From contig CAJOEO010000036.1 in the NCBI GenBank assembly GCA_905233535.1, positions 1-39,451 on the forward strand: a stretch of DNA of 39,451 bases, written 5' to 3'. The notes below the pieces were generated by a model that had not been told where the DNA came from, did no database searches, and was given only the letters and a program-made list of their open reading frames with translations. Within the stretch, counting starts at the first letter, position 1, and every line of letters begins with the position of its first letter. This DNA comes from an uncultured Treponema sp. (GTDB lineage Bacteria; Spirochaetota; Spirochaetia; Treponematales; Treponemataceae). The position numbers were made by a program, and so were the translations under genes. Positions 12,480 through 23,854 of the stretch are shown here, piece after piece.

Positions 12480-14240
12480 ATGAATCGATTTGAAAATCCG
12501 CTAATCGTACAGAGCGACCGTTCGCTTCTGTTAGACGTTCACGCCCCACGCGCAAACGAATGTAGAATCGCGCTCGTTCCGTTTGCAGAATTGGAAAAAT
12601 CGCCAGAACATCTGCACACATACAAACTTTCGCCACTTTCGCTGTGGAATGCCGCCAGCGCGGGATTTTCTGCCGCGGACGCGCTTCGCGTTTTGAACGA
12701 TTTTTCAAAATACGACGTTCCGCAGTCGGTGGAATCTTGGATTTTTGAAACCGCCGAACGATTTGGAAAATTGCGACTCGTTGAAGGCGATTCTCCAGAC
12801 ACGCTTTTTCTTGCCACGCCGAATCCGCTAATTTTTAGAGAAATTGCCGCAAGCAGAATCGGAAAAACGCTTTTAAGTCCGTGCGCAAATGCGGTTGAAT
12901 CTAACTTTTTGAACGACGAAGAAAAACGTCATTCTTTTAGACTCGAATTGACGAATCGTGGAACTGTAAAGCAACAACTTTTGCAAATTGGTTGGCCCGT
13001 TAAAGACGACGTTCCAATGCGCGAAGGCGAACCGCTAGAAATCGATTTGAAAAAAACGACTAGCGCGGGAAAACCGTTTTGCGTGCGAAAATATCAACTT
13101 GAAGCGGCGCAAGCAATCGTTGGAAACAAAGGCGCGGGAACGGGATTCGGCACTGTGGTTCTTCCGTGTGGGGCTGGAAAAACAATCGTTGGAATGACGT
13201 TGATGTCGATTCTAAAAACGAACACGCTTATAGTTACAACAAACATTAGCGCGGTTCACCAATGGATTGACGAACTTTTGGACAAAACCACGCTTTGTCG
13301 CGAACAAATCGCAGAATACACAGGAGAATCCAAAGAAATTCGCCCCGTAACAGTTGCAACGTATCAGATTTTAACTTGGCGAGCGGACAAAGAAGGCGAA
13401 TATCCGCATTTTTCGCTTTTTCGTTCGCGCGCTTGGGGTTTAATCATTTACGACGAAGTTCACACGTTGCCCGCGCCCGTTTTTCGCGTGGTGGCGGAAA
13501 TTCAAGCGGTTAGACGGCTTGGACTTACAGCGACGCTCGTGCGCGAAGACGGTTGCGAAGGCTACGTTTTTTCGCTCGTCGGGCCAAAGCGATACGACGT
13601 TCCCTGGAAAGATTTGGAAGCGAGCGGATTTATTGCAAGCGCGGAATGTATTGAAATCAAATTGAATCTCGACCGTTCGCAAGAATTAGAATACGCCGTT
13701 TGCGAGCCGAGAAAAAAACACAGAATCGCAAGCGAAAATCCAGAAAAATTGACGTTTGTAAAAGAAATCATAAATCAATCTCCAAACGACAAAATCCTCG
13801 TAATCGGGCAGTACATCGACCAACTAAAAAAAATCGCGCAAATGATTGGTTGCCCGATTATCACGGGAAAAACGCCAAACGCCGAGCGCGACCAAATATA
13901 CGCGGATTTTCGTTCGGGGAAAATAAAAGTTCTCGTCGTTTCAAAAGTCGCAAACTTTGCGATTAATTTACCAGACGCAAGTATGGCGATTCAAGTTTCG
14001 GGGACGTTCGGTTCACGCCAAGAAGAAGCGCAACGATTGGGGCGGATTTTGCGTCCAAAAGAACGAAAATCGCGATTCATCACGCTGATTACGCGGAACA
14101 CCGTGGAAGAAGATTTTGGAGCAAATCGACAAAAATTCCTTGCGGAACAAGGATATTCTTACAAAATCGTTAGAAACGAAGACAGACACGAAATTGAAAA
14201 CAACGTGGCATCTGCCCTCGGACAAAATTGCCTTTGTTGA
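12480..14240 (+). CDS. XPB/ERCC3-like DNA repair helicase (SF2)
   Basis: N-terminal NPLIVQSDRSLLLDVHAP...FAELEKSPEHLHTYKLSPLSLWNA; Walker A VVLPCGAGKTIVGM; DEVH box IIYDEVHTLPA; motif VI-like EEAQRLGRILRPK. Confidence 0.92.
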   Translation: MNRFENPLIVQSDRSLLLDVHAPRANECRIALVPFAELEKSPEHLHTYKLSPLSLWNAASAGFSAADALRVLNDFSKYDVPQSVESWIFETAERFGKLRLVEGDSPDTLFLATPNPLIFREIAASRIGKTLLSPCANAVESNFLNDEEKRHSFRLELTNRGTVKQQLLQIGWPVKDDVPMREGEPLEIDLKKTTSAGKPFCVRKYQLEAAQAIVGNKGAGTGFGTVVLPCGAGKTIVGMTLMSILKTNTLIVTTNISAVHQWIDELLDKTTLCREQIAEYTGESKEIRPVTVATYQILTWRADKEGEYPHFSLFRSRAWGLIIYDEVHTLPAPVFRVVAEIQAVRRLGLTATLVREDGCEGYVFSLVGPKRYDVPWKDLEASGFIASAECIEIKLNLDRSQELEYAVCEPRKKHRIASENPEKLTFVKEIINQSPNDKILVIGQYIDQLKKIAQMIGCPIITGKTPNAERDQIYADFRSGKIKVLVVSKVANFAINLPDASMAIQVSGTFGSRQEEAQRLGRILRPKERKSRFITLITRNTVEEDFGANRQKFLAEQGYSYKIVRNEDRHEIENNVASALGQNCLC

Positions 14241-14258
14241 TTTCCAAAAGGAGAAGAA

Positions 14259-16343
14259 ATGAAAGATTTTCGGGCAGAGCGGATTCTTGAATGGAGAGAA
14301 AGCATTGCGACTCTTCCAGACAGCCAATTTTTTGAACTGGTGCGAATGTATCTTGGCGGGTTTTCTTCTCCGTTTAATAAACAAAAACTCATCGAAGATT
14401 TGAGCGCGTTTCTTCGCAACGACGAAAACAAAAAAATCATCGCGTCGCTTTTAAGCGAAACCGATTTGAAAATCATTGCGGCGGTTTGTTGCATAAACGA
14501 AGCGAGCGTTGAAAAAATCGCGCAATTTTTTGACGGCACGATTTCGTTTGTTGAAATCAGCGAGCGCGTTTCAAATCTCGAAGAACGTTTGATTCTTTTT
14601 AGAAAAAAACGCGAAGACGCAAAAACGGAACTTTGCATAAATCCGCATTTGGACGACATTTTTGACAAAGACGCTTTGCGCGGCGTTCTTCTTCAAGAAG
14701 GAAACGTCGTTCGTCTAAATCAAAAATCGAATTTTCGACTTTCGCCAGAATTTTTGTCGGCGTTCATTTCGTTTGTAAATTTGAATCCCGACCTTTGTAA
14801 ATGCGACGGCACATTCAAAAAACGGATTTTGGGCGAAATCAAAAACGTTTTTGGCGAAATCGGCGACGAAATCTTCCTTTTAAAAAACGCATTTGAAAAT
14901 CTTGGAATAATCGTTTGCAGCGAAGACGGCAAACATTCCGTTGCACGCGAAAAACTAATCGCGTTTTCAAAATTGCCACAAACCGTGCAGAAAGCCTACA
15001 TTTGCGCCACCGCGCAGGCGCGACTTTCGCGAGCCGCCCTTTGCGCCGAGGCGAGAATTTTGATTCAAAGCGCGATTTCGATTCCAGCGGGCGGATTTTC
15101 GCGCTCCGTTTTGATTCGTTTGGCGTGGCTTTTAAGCGCGGACGACGGCACGCAAAAGAAAAGTCGATTTTCCAAAATGCTCGAAAAATATTCTGCGCCC
15201 TCCCCCACTTTTCAAACGGAAACGTTGACTAGCGGGCTTTCGCGTTTGATTGACAGCGCGATTCGTTTGGGATTTTTTAGAATTCGCGGAATCGAAGAAG
15301 ACGGCACGGACATTTTTGAAGCGAGCGAAGAAATTTTTGACGGTTTGGAAACGCACGAAAACGAAACGGCAAAAGTTCTTTCGATTGACGCGGCGTTTAC
15401 GGTGATGCTTTTTCCTGGACTTTCGCTTTTTAAACTCGTTTCGCTTTTGGATTTTCTTGAAATCCGAAAATTCGACACCGCTCTAACGTTTGAAATCACA
15501 AAAAAATCCGTGATGAAATCGTTTGACCTTTCGATTTTTGAAGACGAAATTACGCGACTTCTTGAAACGTTTTGCATGCACGCTCTTCCGCAAAATCTTC
15601 TTGTGCAGTTGGAAGATTGGCGAAAAGCCTACGGAAACGCGACGCTTTATTCGGGATTTGTGCTTCGCGTTTTGAACGACGACGCGGGTTTTAGCCTAAA
15701 AAATCCAAAGTTTGCCGAACACGTTGTAGAAACGCTCGCGCCTGGCGTTTTTCTTTTGGACGTTTCATCGGAAGCGGAGGCAAGAAAAATTGTTTCAAAT
15801 TTCGGTTCGGATTTTGTGGGAAAAACTCATTCTGCACAAAAAACGCGCGAAATCGCCGATTTTCCAGAAATTTTTGTGGAACGAAAAAAAGAATCGCCGA
15901 TTTTTCAAAATTCGATTCCAAAAATCTCGTCTGAAGAAGAACGAAAATCTCATTTTGAAAAATTGCGTTCAGCGTTGGAAAAAATGACGCTTTCAAAGGA
16001 AGAAAAAGAATGTTTGCTTTTTAGAATCAATCGAAAAATCATTTTGACAGAAAAGCAACTAAAAAGCGAAAGCGTAAAATTTTCGCGGCTTGAAGCGAGC
16101 GGAATGGATTTTTTGGGCAAAGTCCACATAATCGAACAATCGATGAACGAAAAAATCCCCGTGGAAATGACGTTTTCCGCGCCACCGCCAAACGGAGCAG
16201 TTGTGATTGGGCTTCCGCTTTTAATCGAAAAAAACGAAAACGACGTTTTTGTAACCGTGCGCCCCGCAGGAACAAACGTGGAACAACGATTTTCCGTGAG
16301 CCAAGCAAACCGCGTTCGACAAATCTATTCTTCAAAATTTTAA
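14259..16343 (+). CDS. Helicase-associated protein with XPB/Ssl2-like N-terminal-type domain
   Basis: Co-directional, 18 nt after the XPB-like gene; large helical protein ending NGAVVIGLPLLIEKNENDVFVTVRPAGTNVEQRFSVSQANRVRQIYSSKF. Confidence 0.6.
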   Translation: MKDFRAERILEWRESIATLPDSQFFELVRMYLGGFSSPFNKQKLIEDLSAFLRNDENKKIIASLLSETDLKIIAAVCCINEASVEKIAQFFDGTISFVEISERVSNLEERLILFRKKREDAKTELCINPHLDDIFDKDALRGVLLQEGNVVRLNQKSNFRLSPEFLSAFISFVNLNPDLCKCDGTFKKRILGEIKNVFGEIGDEIFLLKNAFENLGIIVCSEDGKHSVAREKLIAFSKLPQTVQKAYICATAQARLSRAALCAEARILIQSAISIPAGGFSRSVLIRLAWLLSADDGTQKKSRFSKMLEKYSAPSPTFQTETLTSGLSRLIDSAIRLGFFRIRGIEEDGTDIFEASEEIFDGLETHENETAKVLSIDAAFTVMLFPGLSLFKLVSLLDFLEIRKFDTALTFEITKKSVMKSFDLSIFEDEITRLLETFCMHALPQNLLVQLEDWRKAYGNATLYSGFVLRVLNDDAGFSLKNPKFAEHVVETLAPGVFLLDVSSEAEARKIVSNFGSDFVGKTHSAQKTREIADFPEIFVERKKESPIFQNSIPKISSEEERKSHFEKLRSALEKMTLSKEEKECLLFRINRKIILTEKQLKSESVKFSRLEASGMDFLGKVHIIEQSMNEKIPVEMTFSAPPPNGAVVIGLPLLIEKNENDVFVTVRPAGTNVEQRFSVSQANRVRQIYSSKF

Positions 16344-16403: not shown

Positions 16404-16571
16404 AGTTTTGCGACAAAAGACGGCGGCGGCGCGATGAATCAGTTTATCACGGACATTTCGTTCCGTTTTGCTGGCTTTGAGCATTTTTCTGCAGGTTTGA
16501 ATGTGAACAGAAAGTTCTCTGCAAACAAAGCGCAGTTTGACGGCGGAATCAAACTCGGCTGGCGGCTGTAA
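16404..16571 (+). pseudogene. C-terminal remnant of an outer-membrane beta-barrel protein
   Basis: Frame after TGA at 16401 reads SFATKDGGGAMNQFITDISFRFAGFEHFSAGLNVNRKFSANKAQFDGGIKLGWRL-stop; alternating pattern with aromatic C-terminal strand; no start or signal sequence. Confidence 0.55.
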
Positions 16572-17719
16572 TGGATTCTTGTTCCAACTTGCAGTTTTGT
16601 TCTGCTCATCTGCTTCAGACGGTTTTTCTCTTTAGCGGTGAGCGTTTTTGTTTGCGCAGAATATTTTTTTAGCGTGGCAATATCCATAAAAAGCGGTTCA
16701 AATTCAATTTTTGTCTTCTTTTTCAAATGATTTAATATATAAAATCCGCCAATATCTATATCGCCAAAGTGCATATATTTTTTCTGCTTATTCTGTTCAT
16801 AAATCATACGAATAAAATCTCGTTTTACTCGATTATGAAATCCGCCAAGATAAATCACAAAATCGTCTGAATTTTTGTAATCGTGAAAAGATGTGAGATT
16901 TTCAACCGTAACGATTCGATTTCCCAAAATAACGATTTTTGTAATTTCTTTAAGAGTTTGTGTTGAAAATGCAATGTCGCCGTTCAACAACGAAAGATTA
17001 ATTATTTGAGTGTTTAATGTAATTATTCCATTACCTTTTACACATACATAAGTCGGAGTTTTTATTATATTATATTCTACTAAAATATTTTCTTTATCGT
17101 CGTAATCGCCGTATTGAGTAAGAATGGAAATAACCGAAGACTGGATTTTCTCGAATTTTTTGCTGTCGTTAAAAAGACGAATTGAAAAATCGCGGACAAA
17201 AATCTCTTCTTCGTTTTGCAAAACTGCGCGGGTTGCTTTTAAAATGCAATCGAATTCATCAAAATTTTGCGTTTCCTTGTTAAAATGCTCCACATTTTTG
17301 TTCTGCACGATTTTCGCTTTCTGCTCCAAAATAAATTTTTGCAAAGGCGAATCTTTATCCGACGGGTCGCTGTAAAAATCCAGCACGCGAAGCAAAGTTT
17401 TTTGAAATTCTTTTCTGTTTGCGCGATTAAGATTTTTGTAAATTTTTTGCAAAACATCTTCAGCCGCATTAAGTGTTGCTGACTTTATTTTTCCGCTTTT
17501 TTCTTTTTGAAGAGAAATAAAATTTTTTTGTTCCAACTGAGAAAGTTTTTCGTTTACATCAGCAAAAAAATCGTACTCGGCATTGTCGTCATATTTTGGA
17601 AAAAGTTTTGAAATCGACACCTTGAAAACCTGCTGAATTTTGTTTTCGCCAGAAAAAGTTTTGCTTTTTTCGTACAGGTCGAGAAGCGCGTTTAAGATTT
17701 TTGATTCAATATTGGTCAT
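16549..17719 (-). pseudogene. jetD: Wadjet JetD-like Toprim nuclease (DUF3322/DUF2220 type), C-terminus frameshifted with apparent deletion
   Basis: VENLTSFHDY...YLGGFHN...MHFGDIDIGGFYILNHLKKK Toprim-like motifs. The +1 frame after ...KNRLKQM reads AEQNCKLEQESITAASRV-stop, the expected JetD-type C-terminus. Start MTNIESK at 17719. Confidence 0.82.
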
Positions 17720-17927
17720 TTTTTTCTTCAAGATAATACTGATAAATATACGCCGCACCTTCACGATATAAGAGCGTTTCCTTATCAGATAATTTTTCAA
17801 AAATATGCGATTCGTATAATTTTTTTAGTGCTTCATCGTATTCAATTTTTTCATCTTCAATAATAAAAGCCGCTATTTTCTTAGTGAGCGAATCTATTAG
17901 CCAATCGATTTTGTCTGTTTTATCCAT
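17706..17927 (-). CDS. Small acidic helical protein, partner-type protein of the DUF3990 gene
   Basis: 73 aa; start overlaps the DUF3990-like stop by 8 nt (ATGGATAA); end overlaps jetD start by 14 nt. Confidence 0.75.
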   Translation of the reverse strand: MDKTDKIDWLIDSLTKKIAAFIIEDEKIEYDEALKKLYESHIFEKLSDKETLLYREGAAYIYQYYLEEKNDQY

Positions 17928-18432
17928 AAATCGTTCCTGCTTTTTTCAAAATCTTAATCGATTTTTCAGTATGAAAAGAGTACTGCATAGAAAGTTCCTT
18001 GTATGTCATTTTCTTTTTAAGCATTTCAAGGTCGATAAATTCCTGTTCATACTGCTGAAATAAAACCGCCATCATGTCGTTTGCAACTGGTCCGTGAACA
18101 ATGTCGTATTTGCAATCTTGATTGCAAAGCGGATTTTGAAATTCTGAAAAATAGCGATTTCGATTGTTCATAACAAACAAAGCCCACTCTTCAGTTGGAA
18201 TATTTGAAAAATCTTTTATGCGGAAAAACGAATTTTTCATAAAATCATCATCGCTTTCGAATATGTTTAAAACAGGTCTTCCGCCTTTGATTCTAGCAGT
18301 CCGTTTTGCCATATTTTCAGCCTGCTGCTGAATGTCTGTCAAATAAAATCCTTTTCCAAAATCGCGAAACGGTTTGCAGATTTTTAAATTTATTTCTTTG
18401 ATTTCAACATTGCTTCCGTGATATAAAATCAT
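17920..18432 (-). CDS. DUF3990-like putative ADP-ribosyltransferase-fold protein
   Basis: MILYHGSNVEIKEINL...FRDFGKGFYLTDIQQQAENMAKRTA...YDIVHGPVANDMMAVLFQQY...QYSFHTEKSIKILKKAG; ATG overlaps upstream stop (ATGA). Confidence 0.8.
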   Translation of the reverse strand: MILYHGSNVEIKEINLKICKPFRDFGKGFYLTDIQQQAENMAKRTARIKGGRPVLNIFESDDDFMKNSFFRIKDFSNIPTEEWALFVMNNRNRYFSEFQNPLCNQDCKYDIVHGPVANDMMAVLFQQYEQEFIDLEMLKKKMTYKELSMQYSFHTEKSIKILKKAGTIYG

Positions 18433-18659
18433 ATTTTTCCGCCATTTTGCCGACAAATTTCCGTCATATCTTCAACTGTTTCTTCTATCGACAGAGTGTG
18501 TTCAATTTCATAATGCTCTTTTAGAAACGCAATCGCATTATTTTTGTAGAGATAACAAAATGCGTCCTTTTTTGAAAGCCGCTGTTTTTGCGCAAAACTG
18601 CTCACGCAAGCAACCATATATGAAATTTGATTTGCAGTATGCCGTTGATTTATATCCAT
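18429..18659 (-). CDS. DUF3791-like small protein
   Basis: ISYMVACVSSFAQKQRLSKKDAFCYLYKNNAIAFLKEHYEIEHTLSIEETVEDMTEICRQNGG; starts 6 nt after the jetC stop. Confidence 0.8.
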   Translation of the reverse strand: MDINQRHTANQISYMVACVSSFAQKQRLSKKDAFCYLYKNNAIAFLKEHYEIEHTLSIEETVEDMTEICRQNGGKI

Positions 18660-18665
18660 TTTCTG

Positions 18666-21600
18666 TTACTCCAAATATCTAAAATCGTCCACAAAACTTG
18701 TTCGTCCATCGCGAATAACAGTTAGAACAGTGTTTGCTTTTTCGCCTATGTCCTGAATTTTTTGCGAAGGCGCAAACAAAATCACTTGAAATTCCAACTC
18801 GTTGAACAAATCCATCGTAGCGGAAATTCTCTGCTCGTCCATTCGGTCAAACGCTTCGTCCATTAAAATTATACGCACGCAATTTCCGTTTTTGTAAATA
18901 TTGTTGAGCGAAGCCGCCATTATCACATAAAACGGAACTTGCGATTCCCCGCCAGAATTTAAATGCACGGTCTCAGAAAGCCGCTGAATCGAACCGTCTT
19001 TTTTATGAATTTCTATGTCGTAGTCCAAATAATTTCGATAATCGGTGTATTCTCGCACAATCGAATCGCTGTTTTCTTTTACTTGCAATTTGCTGAACAA
19101 ATCTTCGATTTCGTCTTTGTATTTTTCTTCAAAATCTCCGCTGAACAAATTTTTCGTTTCCTGATTGTCTTCCGACATTATCATTTTATAAAGCGATTGT
19201 TTTTCTTTGCTTGCCGTCATTTTAAAATCATAAGAATCTTCTCCGTAAGACAGATTTTTTAGAGCCTTCCGCAGATTTTCGAATTCGTATTGCGATGTTT
19301 CAATCGCTTCTTTCATTTTGGAAAGGAATTCGTTTCTAAAAATATCTTCGCTGTCCGCCTTTGCCTGTCGGATTTTTTCTTCGTATTTTACGATTTCAAC
19401 GCCGTCAATTTTTTTGAAAACTTCAATATATTCTGCAAGATTTTCTACGCCGTGTTTAAAATCGCGAGTAAAATCCACATTGTATTTACACTGCTTTTGA
19501 ATTAACTGCTCTTTCAGCGATTCAAATTGATTTTTAAGCGTTTCGCGCCTCGGCGAAAAATTTTCAGAAATCGTTTGCGCAGATTTTATTTTTAACTCTT
19601 CCTTGAATTTTTTGCCAGCTTCGTCAAAAAGAGAAACCTTTTCGATTGAAATATTATCAAGATATTTCTTCAATTCCGCCGTTTGATTTTTTAAGGATTC
19701 CGTTTCTTTTTCATCGCTTTGAATTTTTACTTTCAGCGAAGATTTTTCGTCGCGAATTTTATTTTGCCTTTTGTAAAGTTCATTTTGCAACTTTTCCTGC
19801 TCTTCTATTTTTTTGACCAATTCAATGATGTCAGGATTCTTTTTCAATTCGTCCAAATCTTTTTTTGATTTTTCGATTTCCTTTTCATTTTTCAAAAGTT
19901 CATTCGGACTAGAAAGATTTTCAAACAGCGAATCAAAATTGATTTCGATATTTTTCAATTCTGAAAAAAAATTAATTTTTTCCCTCAATTCCTGCAATTT
20001 CTCTTTTAGTTTTTTTGAATTCTGCAGATATTGCTTCAACTGTTTTGCAATCGCATCTTTTCCAATGTATGGTTTTGCGTAAATCTCAGGATTGATTTTT
20101 CGCGCAACAAAATTTTTGTAAAGCATACAATCTTTCGTAACTGCACAATCAAATTTTTCCAATTCGCCAAGATTTTCCGCGCAAAAAACTTTTCCCAAAA
20201 TGTAATTCACAAAATTTTTTGCATAAAAATTTTCCGATTCCACAAAACGCGCAAGCGATTTTTCTTCAATTTGAAGATTTGTCGGAATTTTTCCTGTATT
20301 TATGATTCCTTGACTGTGAATCTTCGAGCAACTGTAAACTTCAAGCGCGATTTTATAATATTTTGGCTCAACGATAATATAAAACCGCTGAGTGTTCAAA
20401 AATCCTTCGATTGCGTTTGTCCAAGTTTTGTCAGAAATTTCCAAAAGTTCCGACAAAATATACACGCGGCTTTCAATTTCGCGCTCATCAAATTCTTTTT
20501 GAATCGCATCGCGAAACGCGGTCGTTTGCTGAGGAAACGGAATATTTTGCTTTTGCAAAATCTCTATCGCTTTTTCTTTTTCGCCGATTTCATTTTGAAT
20601 ATGCCGATATTCGTCTTGCGCGTGAACTTTCTGCTCGTCAAGATTCTGCATTTGATTTTGAACAAACGATTTTATTTTTTGCGCGATTTCCAATTTTTCC
20701 GATTCCGCATTTTCTTCCAAAAGAAAATTCAGTTCGTTTGGAGAAATGTCAACTTTCGCAATTTTTAAAAACAGGGCAAGCATCGAACGGATTTTTTCAA
20801 CTTGATTTTTAAGATTTTCGCGGCATTTTTTCAAATCGCGTCTTTTGTTTTGCAAATTGTTCAATTTTTCTTCAAGTTTTTCGATTGCTTTTGAACATTC
20901 GTTTTCCTTTTTCGATGATTCTAATTCAAGAAGAATTTTTCCCGCACCGCGAATGTCATTTTCCAAGTTTTGAATCTCGTTTTCTTTTAAGAAAAATCGA
21001 TTTTTATTTACGCTAATCAAATTTTCAAAATCTTTGATTTTATTTTTTAGATTTTCAAAATTTGCAAGAAGAATCAAAAGTTCAACAACTTCCTTGTCGT
21101 GCTGATTTTTTTCGATTTCATCATTTTTTTTGATTATTTCAGAAAGCGAATTTCGCTCCAATTTTGTTTTTTCAAGCGTTCGTTCAAGTTCGTTCAGCGC
21201 GTCAATGCTTTCTCTAAGCGAGTTTACATCGATTTCTTTTTCCGAAAGAACATATTTGTTGATAAATTCTTTTATATCGTCAACAGGTCGAAACGCGATT
21301 GTTTTCCTAATAACATCAAAAAATTTTTCTTCAAGATTTCCAAGTCTGTGGCGAAGTCTGTTTTTGTATTCATTTGCATTGTAAAACTGAATTTTATTTC
21401 CCTTATTTTTGAATTGCTCTGGAAGGCTGGGCTTTTGTTTGTCCGTCAAAAAAGAAATATCGTCAAAAGAGCCTGATTCAATGTACCATCGCCGTTTTAC
21501 CGCGTCCGTTTCGTCCGCCGAAAGCAAATGTATTCCGCAAACAAAAAAGCGATTTTCTTTTTCTTCGTAAAATTCCAGCGCGATATTTGAAATGACCGCA

Positions 21601-21881
21601 CCTTTTCGCATATATGTTTCATTCGTCGTGTTTACTTTACACCGAACATAGCCACGCAAATCGCGCTTGCTTTTTTCATTTGCAGCTTCATTAAAATGTG
21701 TTGTATTCCCCGTAAGAACCATTTGCATAGCATCAAGAATTGTGGATTTTCCTGCGCCATTGTTCCCAGTGATTAATGCCGAATTATTCTTTGCCGTCAA
21801 ATCTCCAACAAGAGAAATAGTTTCGTCTGAAAAATACATCCAATTTATAATTCGTATTCTAGTCAGCGTCGTCTTCTGCAT
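18666..21881 (-). CDS. jetC: Wadjet JetC-like SMC/MukB-type coiled-coil ATPase
   Basis: Walker A ALITGNNGAGKSTILDAMQMVLTG, long coiled coils, signature LNSGGESQVPFYVIMAASL, Walker B IILMDEAFDRMDEQR. Likely start MQKTTLTRI at 21881; ORF open to 21941. Confidence 0.92.
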   Translation of the reverse strand: MQKTTLTRIRIINWMYFSDETISLVGDLTAKNNSALITGNNGAGKSTILDAMQMVLTGNTTHFNEAANEKSKRDLRGYVRCKVNTTNETYMRKGAVISNIALEFYEEKENRFFVCGIHLLSADETDAVKRRWYIESGSFDDISFLTDKQKPSLPEQFKNKGNKIQFYNANEYKNRLRHRLGNLEEKFFDVIRKTIAFRPVDDIKEFINKYVLSEKEIDVNSLRESIDALNELERTLEKTKLERNSLSEIIKKNDEIEKNQHDKEVVELLILLANFENLKNKIKDFENLISVNKNRFFLKENEIQNLENDIRGAGKILLELESSKKENECSKAIEKLEEKLNNLQNKRRDLKKCRENLKNQVEKIRSMLALFLKIAKVDISPNELNFLLEENAESEKLEIAQKIKSFVQNQMQNLDEQKVHAQDEYRHIQNEIGEKEKAIEILQKQNIPFPQQTTAFRDAIQKEFDEREIESRVYILSELLEISDKTWTNAIEGFLNTQRFYIIVEPKYYKIALEVYSCSKIHSQGIINTGKIPTNLQIEEKSLARFVESENFYAKNFVNYILGKVFCAENLGELEKFDCAVTKDCMLYKNFVARKINPEIYAKPYIGKDAIAKQLKQYLQNSKKLKEKLQELREKINFFSELKNIEINFDSLFENLSSPNELLKNEKEIEKSKKDLDELKKNPDIIELVKKIEEQEKLQNELYKRQNKIRDEKSSLKVKIQSDEKETESLKNQTAELKKYLDNISIEKVSLFDEAGKKFKEELKIKSAQTISENFSPRRETLKNQFESLKEQLIQKQCKYNVDFTRDFKHGVENLAEYIEVFKKIDGVEIVKYEEKIRQAKADSEDIFRNEFLSKMKEAIETSQYEFENLRKALKNLSYGEDSYDFKMTASKEKQSLYKMIMSEDNQETKNLFSGDFEEKYKDEIEDLFSKLQVKENSDSIVREYTDYRNYLDYDIEIHKKDGSIQRLSETVHLNSGGESQVPFYVIMAASLNNIYKNGNCVRIILMDEAFDRMDEQRISATMDLFNELEFQVILFAPSQKIQDIGEKANTVLTVIRDGRTSFVDDFRYLE

Positions 21882-22485
21882 TGTCTTCAACTCCCGATTC
21901 ATATTCTTCAAGTCGATTTTTTGTTTGTTCGTACAGCGCATTTATTCCATCATCTGAAATTGCCATTAAAACAGACGGATATATTTCTATTCTAGCGTCT
22001 TCTTGTGTTATATCAGAATCTATAATTCTTATAATATTGTATCGTTTAAATATAGCGAGTGCATCTTTCTCTGTAGTTTTGTCAAGTTTTGTATTTAATT
22101 TCAACATATCGAATTTAGAACGAATTTCCTGCATTTTCACAGTTCTTTCTTCGCTTGAAGTTGAAATATCGTTTCTTTTTTCAAGGTACAGAAGACGCAA
22201 AATTAAAAGAAAAATGCTTTGCATTTTAGACAGAAATAACTTTCCAGTTCCCTGTTGATTTTTTATATAAATAAAACCAAGATTTTCGTTTATAAAAAGC
22301 TCATATCCTATCATATCCAAATATTCTATGAACAAATCTTTATTATCTCGTATAAAAATATAATCTTTTCTAGTATCTTCCTTGCGCTTTAAAATAAAAC
22401 ATTTGTTCAAAAGTTTGTTCGCGCTGCTGCGGAATTTTTCCTTTTGACTTTGAGATTCTGCGATTTTTTGTAAATCTTCAAACAT
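21859..22485 (-). CDS. jetB: Wadjet JetB-like (DUF6063/DUF4194-type kleisin-associated) protein
   Basis: Position between jetA and jetC with overlapping starts/stops; winged-helix-like sequence of expected length. Confidence 0.8.
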   Translation of the reverse strand: MFEDLQKIAESQSQKEKFRSSANKLLNKCFILKRKEDTRKDYIFIRDNKDLFIEYLDMIGYELFINENLGFIYIKNQQGTGKLFLSKMQSIFLLILRLLYLEKRNDISTSSEERTVKMQEIRSKFDMLKLNTKLDKTTEKDALAIFKRYNIIRIIDSDITQEDARIEIYPSVLMAISDDGINALYEQTKNRLEEYESGVEDNAEDDAD

Positions 22486-23854
22486 TGCGATTCCTTCTTA
22501 TAATCTTAAAATTGGAAAATTCATAATTTTCAGTTTTAACACGGTCATTCATATTTTCGATTTTGTAAACCTTTGAAATCTGTCCGTAAATTTTTATGTA
22601 TATTGCATACAAAAATTCTTTTCTTTCGTTTAAAGGCAAATCTTTTGCCTGCATTTCCATGCGATTTAAAAGAAGTTTCTGCACATATTCATCGATTTTT
22701 TTTAGATAAATACGATTTTTTTGCCTATTCACTTCATCGCGACGCTTTTTTTCGCGCTCTTCTTTTGAAATACATTCGCTATCAGAAACGCTTTCAATGT
22801 TTGCAAGTTTTCGTTTTGAAATGTATGTTCTAATCGATTCCTCACAAATATAATTCTGCGGAAAAATCGTAAGATAATCATTTATATCGATTTTAGATTC
22901 TTCATTTTCTGCAAAATAACGAAGAATTTGATTTATTTTTCCCTCTTGATTTGTATCCGACGAAAGCACGAATTTTGCGCGCGAAACGGCATTTGTAATG
23001 TAAAATCTATGTTTTCGGTCGATTTCCGCTATTATTTTGTCGAGGTTAAAAAACGAAGATTTTACATCATTAATCATTAAAAAAATCTGATTGCGGGCAA
23101 TTTCGTCATCATTTTCCTGTTCGATTTCCTTATAATTTTCAATAAGTTTATTCAAAATATTCTGGTCTTCGCTTAATTTGTCAAGATTTTTTGTGATAGA
23201 AATTCTAAATCTTGATATATTTTCGCTAGTTTTTAATCTCATATAAGATTTTGAAATGATTTCGTCCTTATAAACATTGAACAAATCTAAAATTTCGTTC
23301 CATTCTAGTTTTTGTGTTTGTCGGTCGATATGACGTTTTATACTAACATTTAATTTTTTTAGACTTGAAATTAATTTTTCTGTATTTACAGAAACATTTT
23401 TTAGAATATACTCATAAGGCTTTGCATACAATTCTTCATTTTGCAAAATTGCGTGAATCTGCGAAATATGACCCGCATATTCTGTTTCCTCGTTCTTCAC
23501 CGATTCTATCATCGTGCGAATAAACGGAATCGCGTATTCTTGAAGCACAATATTTTCCTGATAATTTTTTTCAGGTTCTGTGCATAGCCAGCCGCAATCT
23601 TCCAAATATCTTAAAATAAACAAAGCGCGGCTTCGAGAATCTTTTGGAGTGTCTTCCTCAAAAGAAATATCTATCTTAATTGAATCAAAATATTCTGTAA
23701 GTATAGAAATGATATTTTCCTTGTTTACGCCATAAGAAAGTTCTGATTTATAAGAATTATATATAGAAAAAATACAATCCGCATAAATTTCACGATTCGG
23801 ACTTGAAAGCGGATTAAAAAAATTTTGCGGTATTATGGAGAAAAGTTTTTTCAC
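22478..23854 (-). CDS. jetA: Wadjet JetA-like (DUF5716-type) kleisin protein
   Basis: MKKLFSIIPQNFFNPLSSPNREIYADCI...; GTG start at 23854; first gene of operon. Confidence 0.82.
   Translation of the reverse strand: MKKLFSIIPQNFFNPLSSPNREIYADCIFSIYNSYKSELSYGVNKENIISILTEYFDSIKIDISFEEDTPKDSRSRALFILRYLEDCGWLCTEPEKNYQENIVLQEYAIPFIRTMIESVKNEETEYAGHISQIHAILQNEELYAKPYEYILKNVSVNTEKLISSLKKLNVSIKRHIDRQTQKLEWNEILDLFNVYKDEIISKSYMRLKTSENISRFRISITKNLDKLSEDQNILNKLIENYKEIEQENDDEIARNQIFLMINDVKSSFFNLDKIIAEIDRKHRFYITNAVSRAKFVLSSDTNQEGKINQILRYFAENEESKIDINDYLTIFPQNYICEESIRTYISKRKLANIESVSDSECISKEEREKKRRDEVNRQKNRIYLKKIDEYVQKLLLNRMEMQAKDLPLNERKEFLYAIYIKIYGQISKVYKIENMNDRVKTENYEFSNFKIIRRNRNV

Follow-up and report, generated by a model that had tools for sequence, protein, structure and literature searches.

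A toxin–antitoxin-like DUF3791/DUF3990 cassette lodged between jetC and jetD of a Treponema type I Wadjet operon

We describe a type I Wadjet operon in which three small genes, encoding a DUF3791 protein, a DUF3990 protein and a small acidic protein, stand between jetC and jetD. The operon lies in a 39,451-nucleotide stretch of an uncultured Treponema sp. (assembly GCA_905233535.1, contig CAJOEO010000036.1, positions 1 to 39,451; hereafter the window), and the source genome is a 2.2-Mb draft assembled into 237 contigs, with 92.7% completeness and an estimated contamination of 1.4%. Our analysis suggests that the cassette is probably a mobile toxin–antitoxin (TA) module of the ADP-ribosyltransferase (ART) type, embedded in the Wadjet operon and functioning independently there; it looks like a lodged passenger and not like a new part of Wadjet.

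Results

A three-gene cassette in exact coupling with a type I Wadjet operon

The open reading frames (ORFs) of the window place jetA, jetB and jetC, the DUF3791, DUF3990 and small acidic genes, and jetD in this order on the minus strand (Table 1). The first-pass annotation of this DNA had described the operon with this location and strand and with four tight junctions, and a check of the sequence bore it out on each point: the DUF3791 gene follows the jetC stop at 18666 after a spacer of 6 nt and overlaps the DUF3990 gene in ATGA; the DUF3990 gene in turn shares 8 nt (ATGGATAA) with the small acidic gene, and the latter overlaps by 14 nt with jetD, whose ATG is at 17719. Its assignment of the proteins to DUF3791, DUF3990 and the Jet families also held, Pfam and PADLOC being in agreement. 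JetA, JetB, JetC and JetD, all encoded in one operon, make up the type I Wadjet gene set and all match the PADLOC type-1 models; judged by these matches, the locus is a type I Wadjet by descent. Within JetC, homology begins at about residue 20–25 of the longest ORF, the Walker A and Walker B/signature regions are conserved (Pfam AAA_29 and SbcC_Walker_B; invariant alignment columns), and the closest full-length relative, from the same genus, is 51% identical. The jetB/jetA overlap is 8 nt.

Same-genus relatives show what the uninterrupted site looks like. There it reads ...GATTTCAGATATTATGGCGAATAA.., the jetD ATG lying inside the end of jetC in an 11-nt overlap. At the window site jetC ends at its own stop, the cassette starts 6 nt further on and its last gene overlaps the start of jetD. 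The insert of about 940 nt thus has its coordinates at an exact gene boundary and leaves the genes coupled. Scans of the operon for promoters and terminators gave signals only at the level of shuffled sequence.

The G+C content is 30–36% across 16.5–24 kb compared with about 42–47% in most of the flanks, the sharp drop coincides with the operon, and the cassette is as low in G+C as the Jet genes. Operon and cassette therefore look like one block gained horizontally.

An ART-like protein between two small proteins

The three small genes correspond to the PADLOC candidate system PDC-M13, with components A, B and C adjacent and in order. The AlphaFold model of the DUF3990 protein (predicted local distance difference test score, pLDDT, 84) has as its top PDB folds the RES toxin of Xre-RES, PARP4, ParT, PARP-2, tankyrase and Arr, nearly all of them ARTs, which with modest E-values points to an ART-like fold. 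A PDB sequence search with the DUF3990 alignment returned nothing but a chance match to a phosphodiesterase. Three positions stand out over 71 DUF3990 homologues, H5 (conserved in 96%), Y30 (100%) and Q150 (99%), and the window protein keeps them all; we take them to be the PARP-type H-Y-E set in an H-Y-Q form, by resemblance of the motifs (HGS; GKGxY). Pfam assigns DUF3990 to the ART clan (PMC7955679), and the domain is also found at the C-terminus of a type VI secretion system Rhs protein with a putative immunity gene adjoining (PMC4524185).

The small acidic protein has a calculated pI (isoelectric point) of 4.6. Aligned by hhalign with the DUF3791 set (probability 91%, E 1e-6, 52 columns), it is, as far as this alignment tells, a divergent DUF3791 relative, and the cassette therefore reads as an ART-like gene flanked on both sides by genes of a single small-protein family. 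In gene size, gene order and overlaps it fits the profile of a type II TA system. PDC-M13 reportedly stems from a 2024 preprint by Payne et al. The PADLOC PDC list, as its account in PMC12988326 goes, came from a "guilt-by-embedding" approach, and PDC-M13 is common in rumen bacteria, with 3,324 occurrences (PMC13356809). The names DUF3791 and DUF3990 are scarcely present in the full-text literature, where we found no validated anti-phage activity of PDC-M13.

The genome holds a second DUF3791 gene, an orphan of 65 aa on contig 35 (L003:1486-1683) with no DUF3990 neighbour, possibly a leftover antitoxin.

The cassette does not recur between jetC and jetD

The first-pass annotation had proposed to search distant taxa for Wadjet loci with the cassette between jetC and jetD. 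We set side by side 125 distinct JetC loci, drawn from Spirochaetota, Bacillota and others; 101 of them have a jetD that could be located downstream of jetC, and the 24 loci without detectable jetD were left out of the junction count. This sample is weighted toward relatives of the window JetC and includes draft contigs. None of the 101 other distinct junctions carries the cassette, and the gap between jetC and jetD is at most 130 nt in all. Nine of them are from same-genus relatives with 47–51% JetC identity, and there too jetC and jetD are uninterrupted. Recurrence at this site was thus not found in this sample, and we rejected a "Wadjet subtype", since relatives lack the cassette. Chance ORFs were likewise rejected as an account of the insert, which consists of three HMM-supported (hidden Markov model) genes in exact coupling.

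One distant Wadjet has a DUF3990 gene elsewhere. In a Bacillota metagenome-assembled genome (MAG; JAGAHX010000035.1; locus L092:6681-9392), a gene for an N-terminal helix-turn-helix (HTH)-like region and a DUF3990 domain, with a PDC-M42B-like partner, lies 5' of jetA and is joined to the jetA start by an 8-nt overlap. We regard this as a second DUF3990–Wadjet attachment, differently placed and differently built. No DUF3990 gene was near jetA in 33 JetA-positive Lachnospirales genomes; about half of these have DUF3990 genes, the nearest on a shared contig being some 16 kb off. Across the window's phylum, JetA was present in 12 of 296 genomes and DUF3990 in 39 of 296. In this phylum survey many DUF3990 genes come in multiple copies, and several are fragments or broken by stops; a fast-turnover module would be expected to look like this.

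Viral contigs scanned with the JetC alignment gave short or weak matches only (best E 2e-6) and no Wadjets; 21 plasmid records had JetC-like matches, one alone covering 80% of the query, and the cassette was absent from the one plasmid Wadjet examined (H4, Agathobacter). The literature yielded no description of a Wadjet with such an insert, in a search that did not extend to the tables of the Payne et al. preprint.

The module is found free-standing and inside restriction–modification operons

Most of the 51 non-viral DUF3990 loci have the module standing by itself, commonly with its gene order kept and with short overlaps, in unrelated contexts. Seven of these loci (L061, L288, L265, L280, L282, L285 and L065) have type I restriction–modification (R-M) or DarTG genes on the same strand no more than 500 nt away; Pfam and PADLOC checks were made for several of the seven, and Table 1 gives examples together with a mobilizable plasmid of Moraxella osloensis. 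The closest relatives of the window DUF3990 protein belong to Lachnospirales cassettes (54–62% identity) that are free-standing or beside hsdS (L352, L353), none adjoining Jet genes, and in a tree the window protein falls with L286 and L292 (support 0.88). Given free-standing and R-M-nested relatives, the closest of them outside Wadjet, the module therefore spreads independently of Wadjet. In L265, two ART-type modules, DarTG and the DUF3990 cassette, share one type I R-M host operon.

jetD is frameshifted as assembled

The first-pass annotation had let jetD end at 16549, which proved to be the stop of another reading frame; the frame that opens at 17719 stops at 16439. The frameshift and the accompanying loss of the LEQE motif are absent from that annotation. 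From 17719 the frame is homologous to about residue 375 and then runs out of register, the stop at 16439 belonging to the shifted reading, and the PADLOC JetD1 match reaches only model position 375 of 407. The conserved part retains the Toprim domain motifs ENLTSF and GDIDIGGF. We compared jetD frames with nine relatives, all of which continue beyond about residue 375 for 15–17 residues or more and then have NCKLEQE or a LEQE motif like it. The window jetD has NCKLEQE in the +1 frame only, in a remnant that a deletion of about 35–41 nt sets apart from the main frame, so that the intact in-frame C-terminal EQE required of a type I Wadjet is missing. E349 and E351 of MksG correspond to two conserved glutamates that are proposed nucleophiles in JetD (PMC10123090); from position and spacing, we infer that the EQE motif of the window jetD is this pair. 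Either the JetD nuclease would be impaired or the draft assembly is in error at jetD, and with a truncated jetD the plasmid-cutting arm in this genome may already be impaired.

On the plus strand, convergent to the Wadjet operon, the window has an XPB/RAD25-like helicase gene followed by a gene whose 694-aa product weakly matches the helicase-C domain (12480-16343).

Table 1. Genes of the Wadjet operon and its cassette (window positions), and DUF3990 loci in R-M operons elsewhere
Feature	Position	Strand	Matches and remarks
jetA, kleisin-like, 458 aa	22478..23854	-	Pfam JetA PF18982 312 bits; PADLOC JetA1 399 bits
jetB, KITE, DUF4194/MksE-like, 208 aa	21859..22485	-	PF13835 (DUF4194) 99 bits; PADLOC JetB1 211 bits
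jetC, SMC-like ATPase, 1091 aa (longest ORF)	18666..21941	-	PADLOC JetC1 947 bits
DUF3791 protein, 76 aa, putative antitoxin 1 (PDC-M13A)	18429..18659	-	PF12668 77 bits; PADLOC PDC-M13A 1e-30
DUF3990 protein, 170 aa, putative ADP-ribosyltransferase toxin (PDC-M13B)	17920..18432	-	PF13151 153 bits; PADLOC PDC-M13B 173 bits
Small acidic protein, 73 aa, putative antitoxin 2 or accessory (PDC-M13C)	17706..17927	-	PADLOC PDC-M13C 2.9e-19
jetD, Toprim nuclease, as assembled	16439..17719	-	JetD_C 72 bits; PADLOC JetD1 338 bits
jetD C-terminus remnant, +1 frame	16549..16605	-	AEQNCKLEQESITAASRV, then stop
L061			hsdM-DUF3791-DUF3990-hsdS
L288			hsdS-DUF3990-PDC-M10B-hsdR
L265	3160-9140		DarTG-DUF3990-two small genes-hsdR
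L347, Moraxella osloensis plasmid NZ_CP069435.1, mobilizable	L347:5454-8602		hsdM-DUF3990-small-DUF3791-hsdS; every junction a 4-nt overlap

Discussion

In the most probable model for these data, a mobile three-gene module (DUF3791, DUF3990, DUF3791-like) has entered a type I Wadjet operon right at the boundary of jetC and jetD and would be expressed from the Wadjet transcript. The DUF3990 protein would be a toxin that uses nicotinamide adenine dinucleotide (NAD) for ADP-ribosylation, and the two small DUF3791-type proteins would bind and silence it. Upon shutdown or loss of the shared transcript, by phage takeover or loss of the element, the small proteins would decay first, and the freed ART would modify a host target and stop growth. 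The cassette would in this way work by itself, as an abortive-infection or addiction arm that profits from being expressed and inherited along with Wadjet, and would not be a JetABCD subunit; a Wadjet-specific activation is not indicated. Four observations weigh against this model. The G+C content equals that of the Wadjet genes, so that the cassette is not visibly a younger arrival than the operon; no footprint of the insertion was found, neither a long flanking direct repeat nor a transposase or integrase; the fold matches of DUF3990 are weak by E-value (best 7e-3); and we found in the literature no toxicity, antitoxicity, NAD cleavage or defence assay for this or any other PDC-M13 member.

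The first-pass annotation had read the cassette as an ART-type TA module co-translated with Wadjet, possibly as a guard, addiction device or second effector. Its coupling to Wadjet and its likeness to such a module stand, given the families, the overlaps and the fold, whereas a dedicated role for Wadjet finds no support, given the lack of recurrence and the R-M-nested and free-standing relatives. In a guard or second-effector model, the cassette would be tied to JetABCD and be released on inhibition of Wadjet or activated by plasmid sensing. The tight translational coupling between jetC and jetD speaks for this, as does the distant L092 Wadjet with its HTH-DUF3990 gene coupled to jetA. However, identical coupling is found in R-M operons and is therefore no sign of a Wadjet-specific function, the cassette is absent from the 101 other junctions, its closest DUF3990 relatives are outside Wadjet and jetD is broken as assembled, and taken together we find this model improbable. 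The broken jetD has also to be considered in the light of a decaying locus, an explanation partly compatible with an embedded independent module: the passenger would have come with Wadjet, jetD would have been inactivated and the operon would be in the course of being lost, the cassette being kept as addictive or being itself inactive. The deletion and frameshift take away the LEQE motif whose glutamates match the MksG pair by position, and DUF3990 genes are often fragmentary in the phylum. The remaining frames of the operon and the conserved positions of DUF3990 are intact, though, and the deletion could have arisen from misassembly of so fragmented a draft, so that we consider decay of the whole locus rather unlikely, if still a realistic alternative.

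Errors of assembly could also concern the cassette itself, which would then be a misjoined contig piece. The number of contigs and the estimated contamination allow for a chimera, but all four junctions run without a break (a 6-nt spacer or coding overlaps), the site is at an exact gene boundary, and neither the Jet genes to either side of the insert nor the base composition show any discontinuity, which makes it very unlikely. Harder still to credit is an effector swap, in which JetD is disabled and JetABC now signals to the ART toxin, giving a Wadjet with an ADP-ribosylating effector. The only sampled Wadjet with the cassette at jetC/jetD is also the one without the conserved JetD C-terminal motif in frame; against this, there is one instance, a contact between JetABC and DUF3990 is not known, the module is found in unrelated contexts and the jetD deletion may be an artefact. 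In its most far-fetched form, completion of loop extrusion on a plasmid by JetABC would release the DUF3990 toxin from the two DUF3791-type proteins, growth arrest taking the place of DNA cutting.

With an embedded, independent module as the preferred explanation, an anti-plasmid operon of the SMC (structural maintenance of chromosomes) type joins the known hosts of embedded TA modules, among which R-M operons were known, and the insertion is a precise one, at a gene boundary with gene coupling preserved. Embedding of TA modules is not new; Wadjet as the host is unusual, with one clear instance and one neighbour case of different build. Should the module be active, the locus offers a natural test case for telling a functional link to the host system from mere shared expression and inheritance. 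It also carries a warning, as a cassette within a defence operon is by itself no evidence of a new subtype.

Among known systems, the window shares with type I Wadjet (JetABCD/MksBEFG) the four genes, their canonical order and the PADLOC type-1 matches, and differs from it in the three-gene insert and in a jetD that, as assembled, has no in-frame LEQE motif. It has components A, B and C of the PDC-M13 candidate system in order, but in a Wadjet host, whereas at the other loci examined the host is type I R-M or DarTG/R-M, or there is none. Xre-RES and ParST, small ART-type toxins, provide the closest solved folds to the DUF3990 model, although their antitoxins belong to unrelated families and in sequence DUF3990 resembles no PDB chain to any meaningful degree. 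The L092 Wadjet also has a DUF3990-domain gene coupled to a type I operon, but 5' of jetA, fused to an N-terminal HTH-like region, with a PDC-M42B-like partner and with a distantly related DUF3990 domain. DarTG2 lodged between hsdS and hsdR is an established case of ART-type TA embedding in a defence operon (PMC12255303); its ART family is another, its antitoxin is a macrodomain protein instead of DUF3791 proteins and its host is R-M, yet it resembles the cassette described here in being an ART toxin–antitoxin pair that has settled inside a defence operon.

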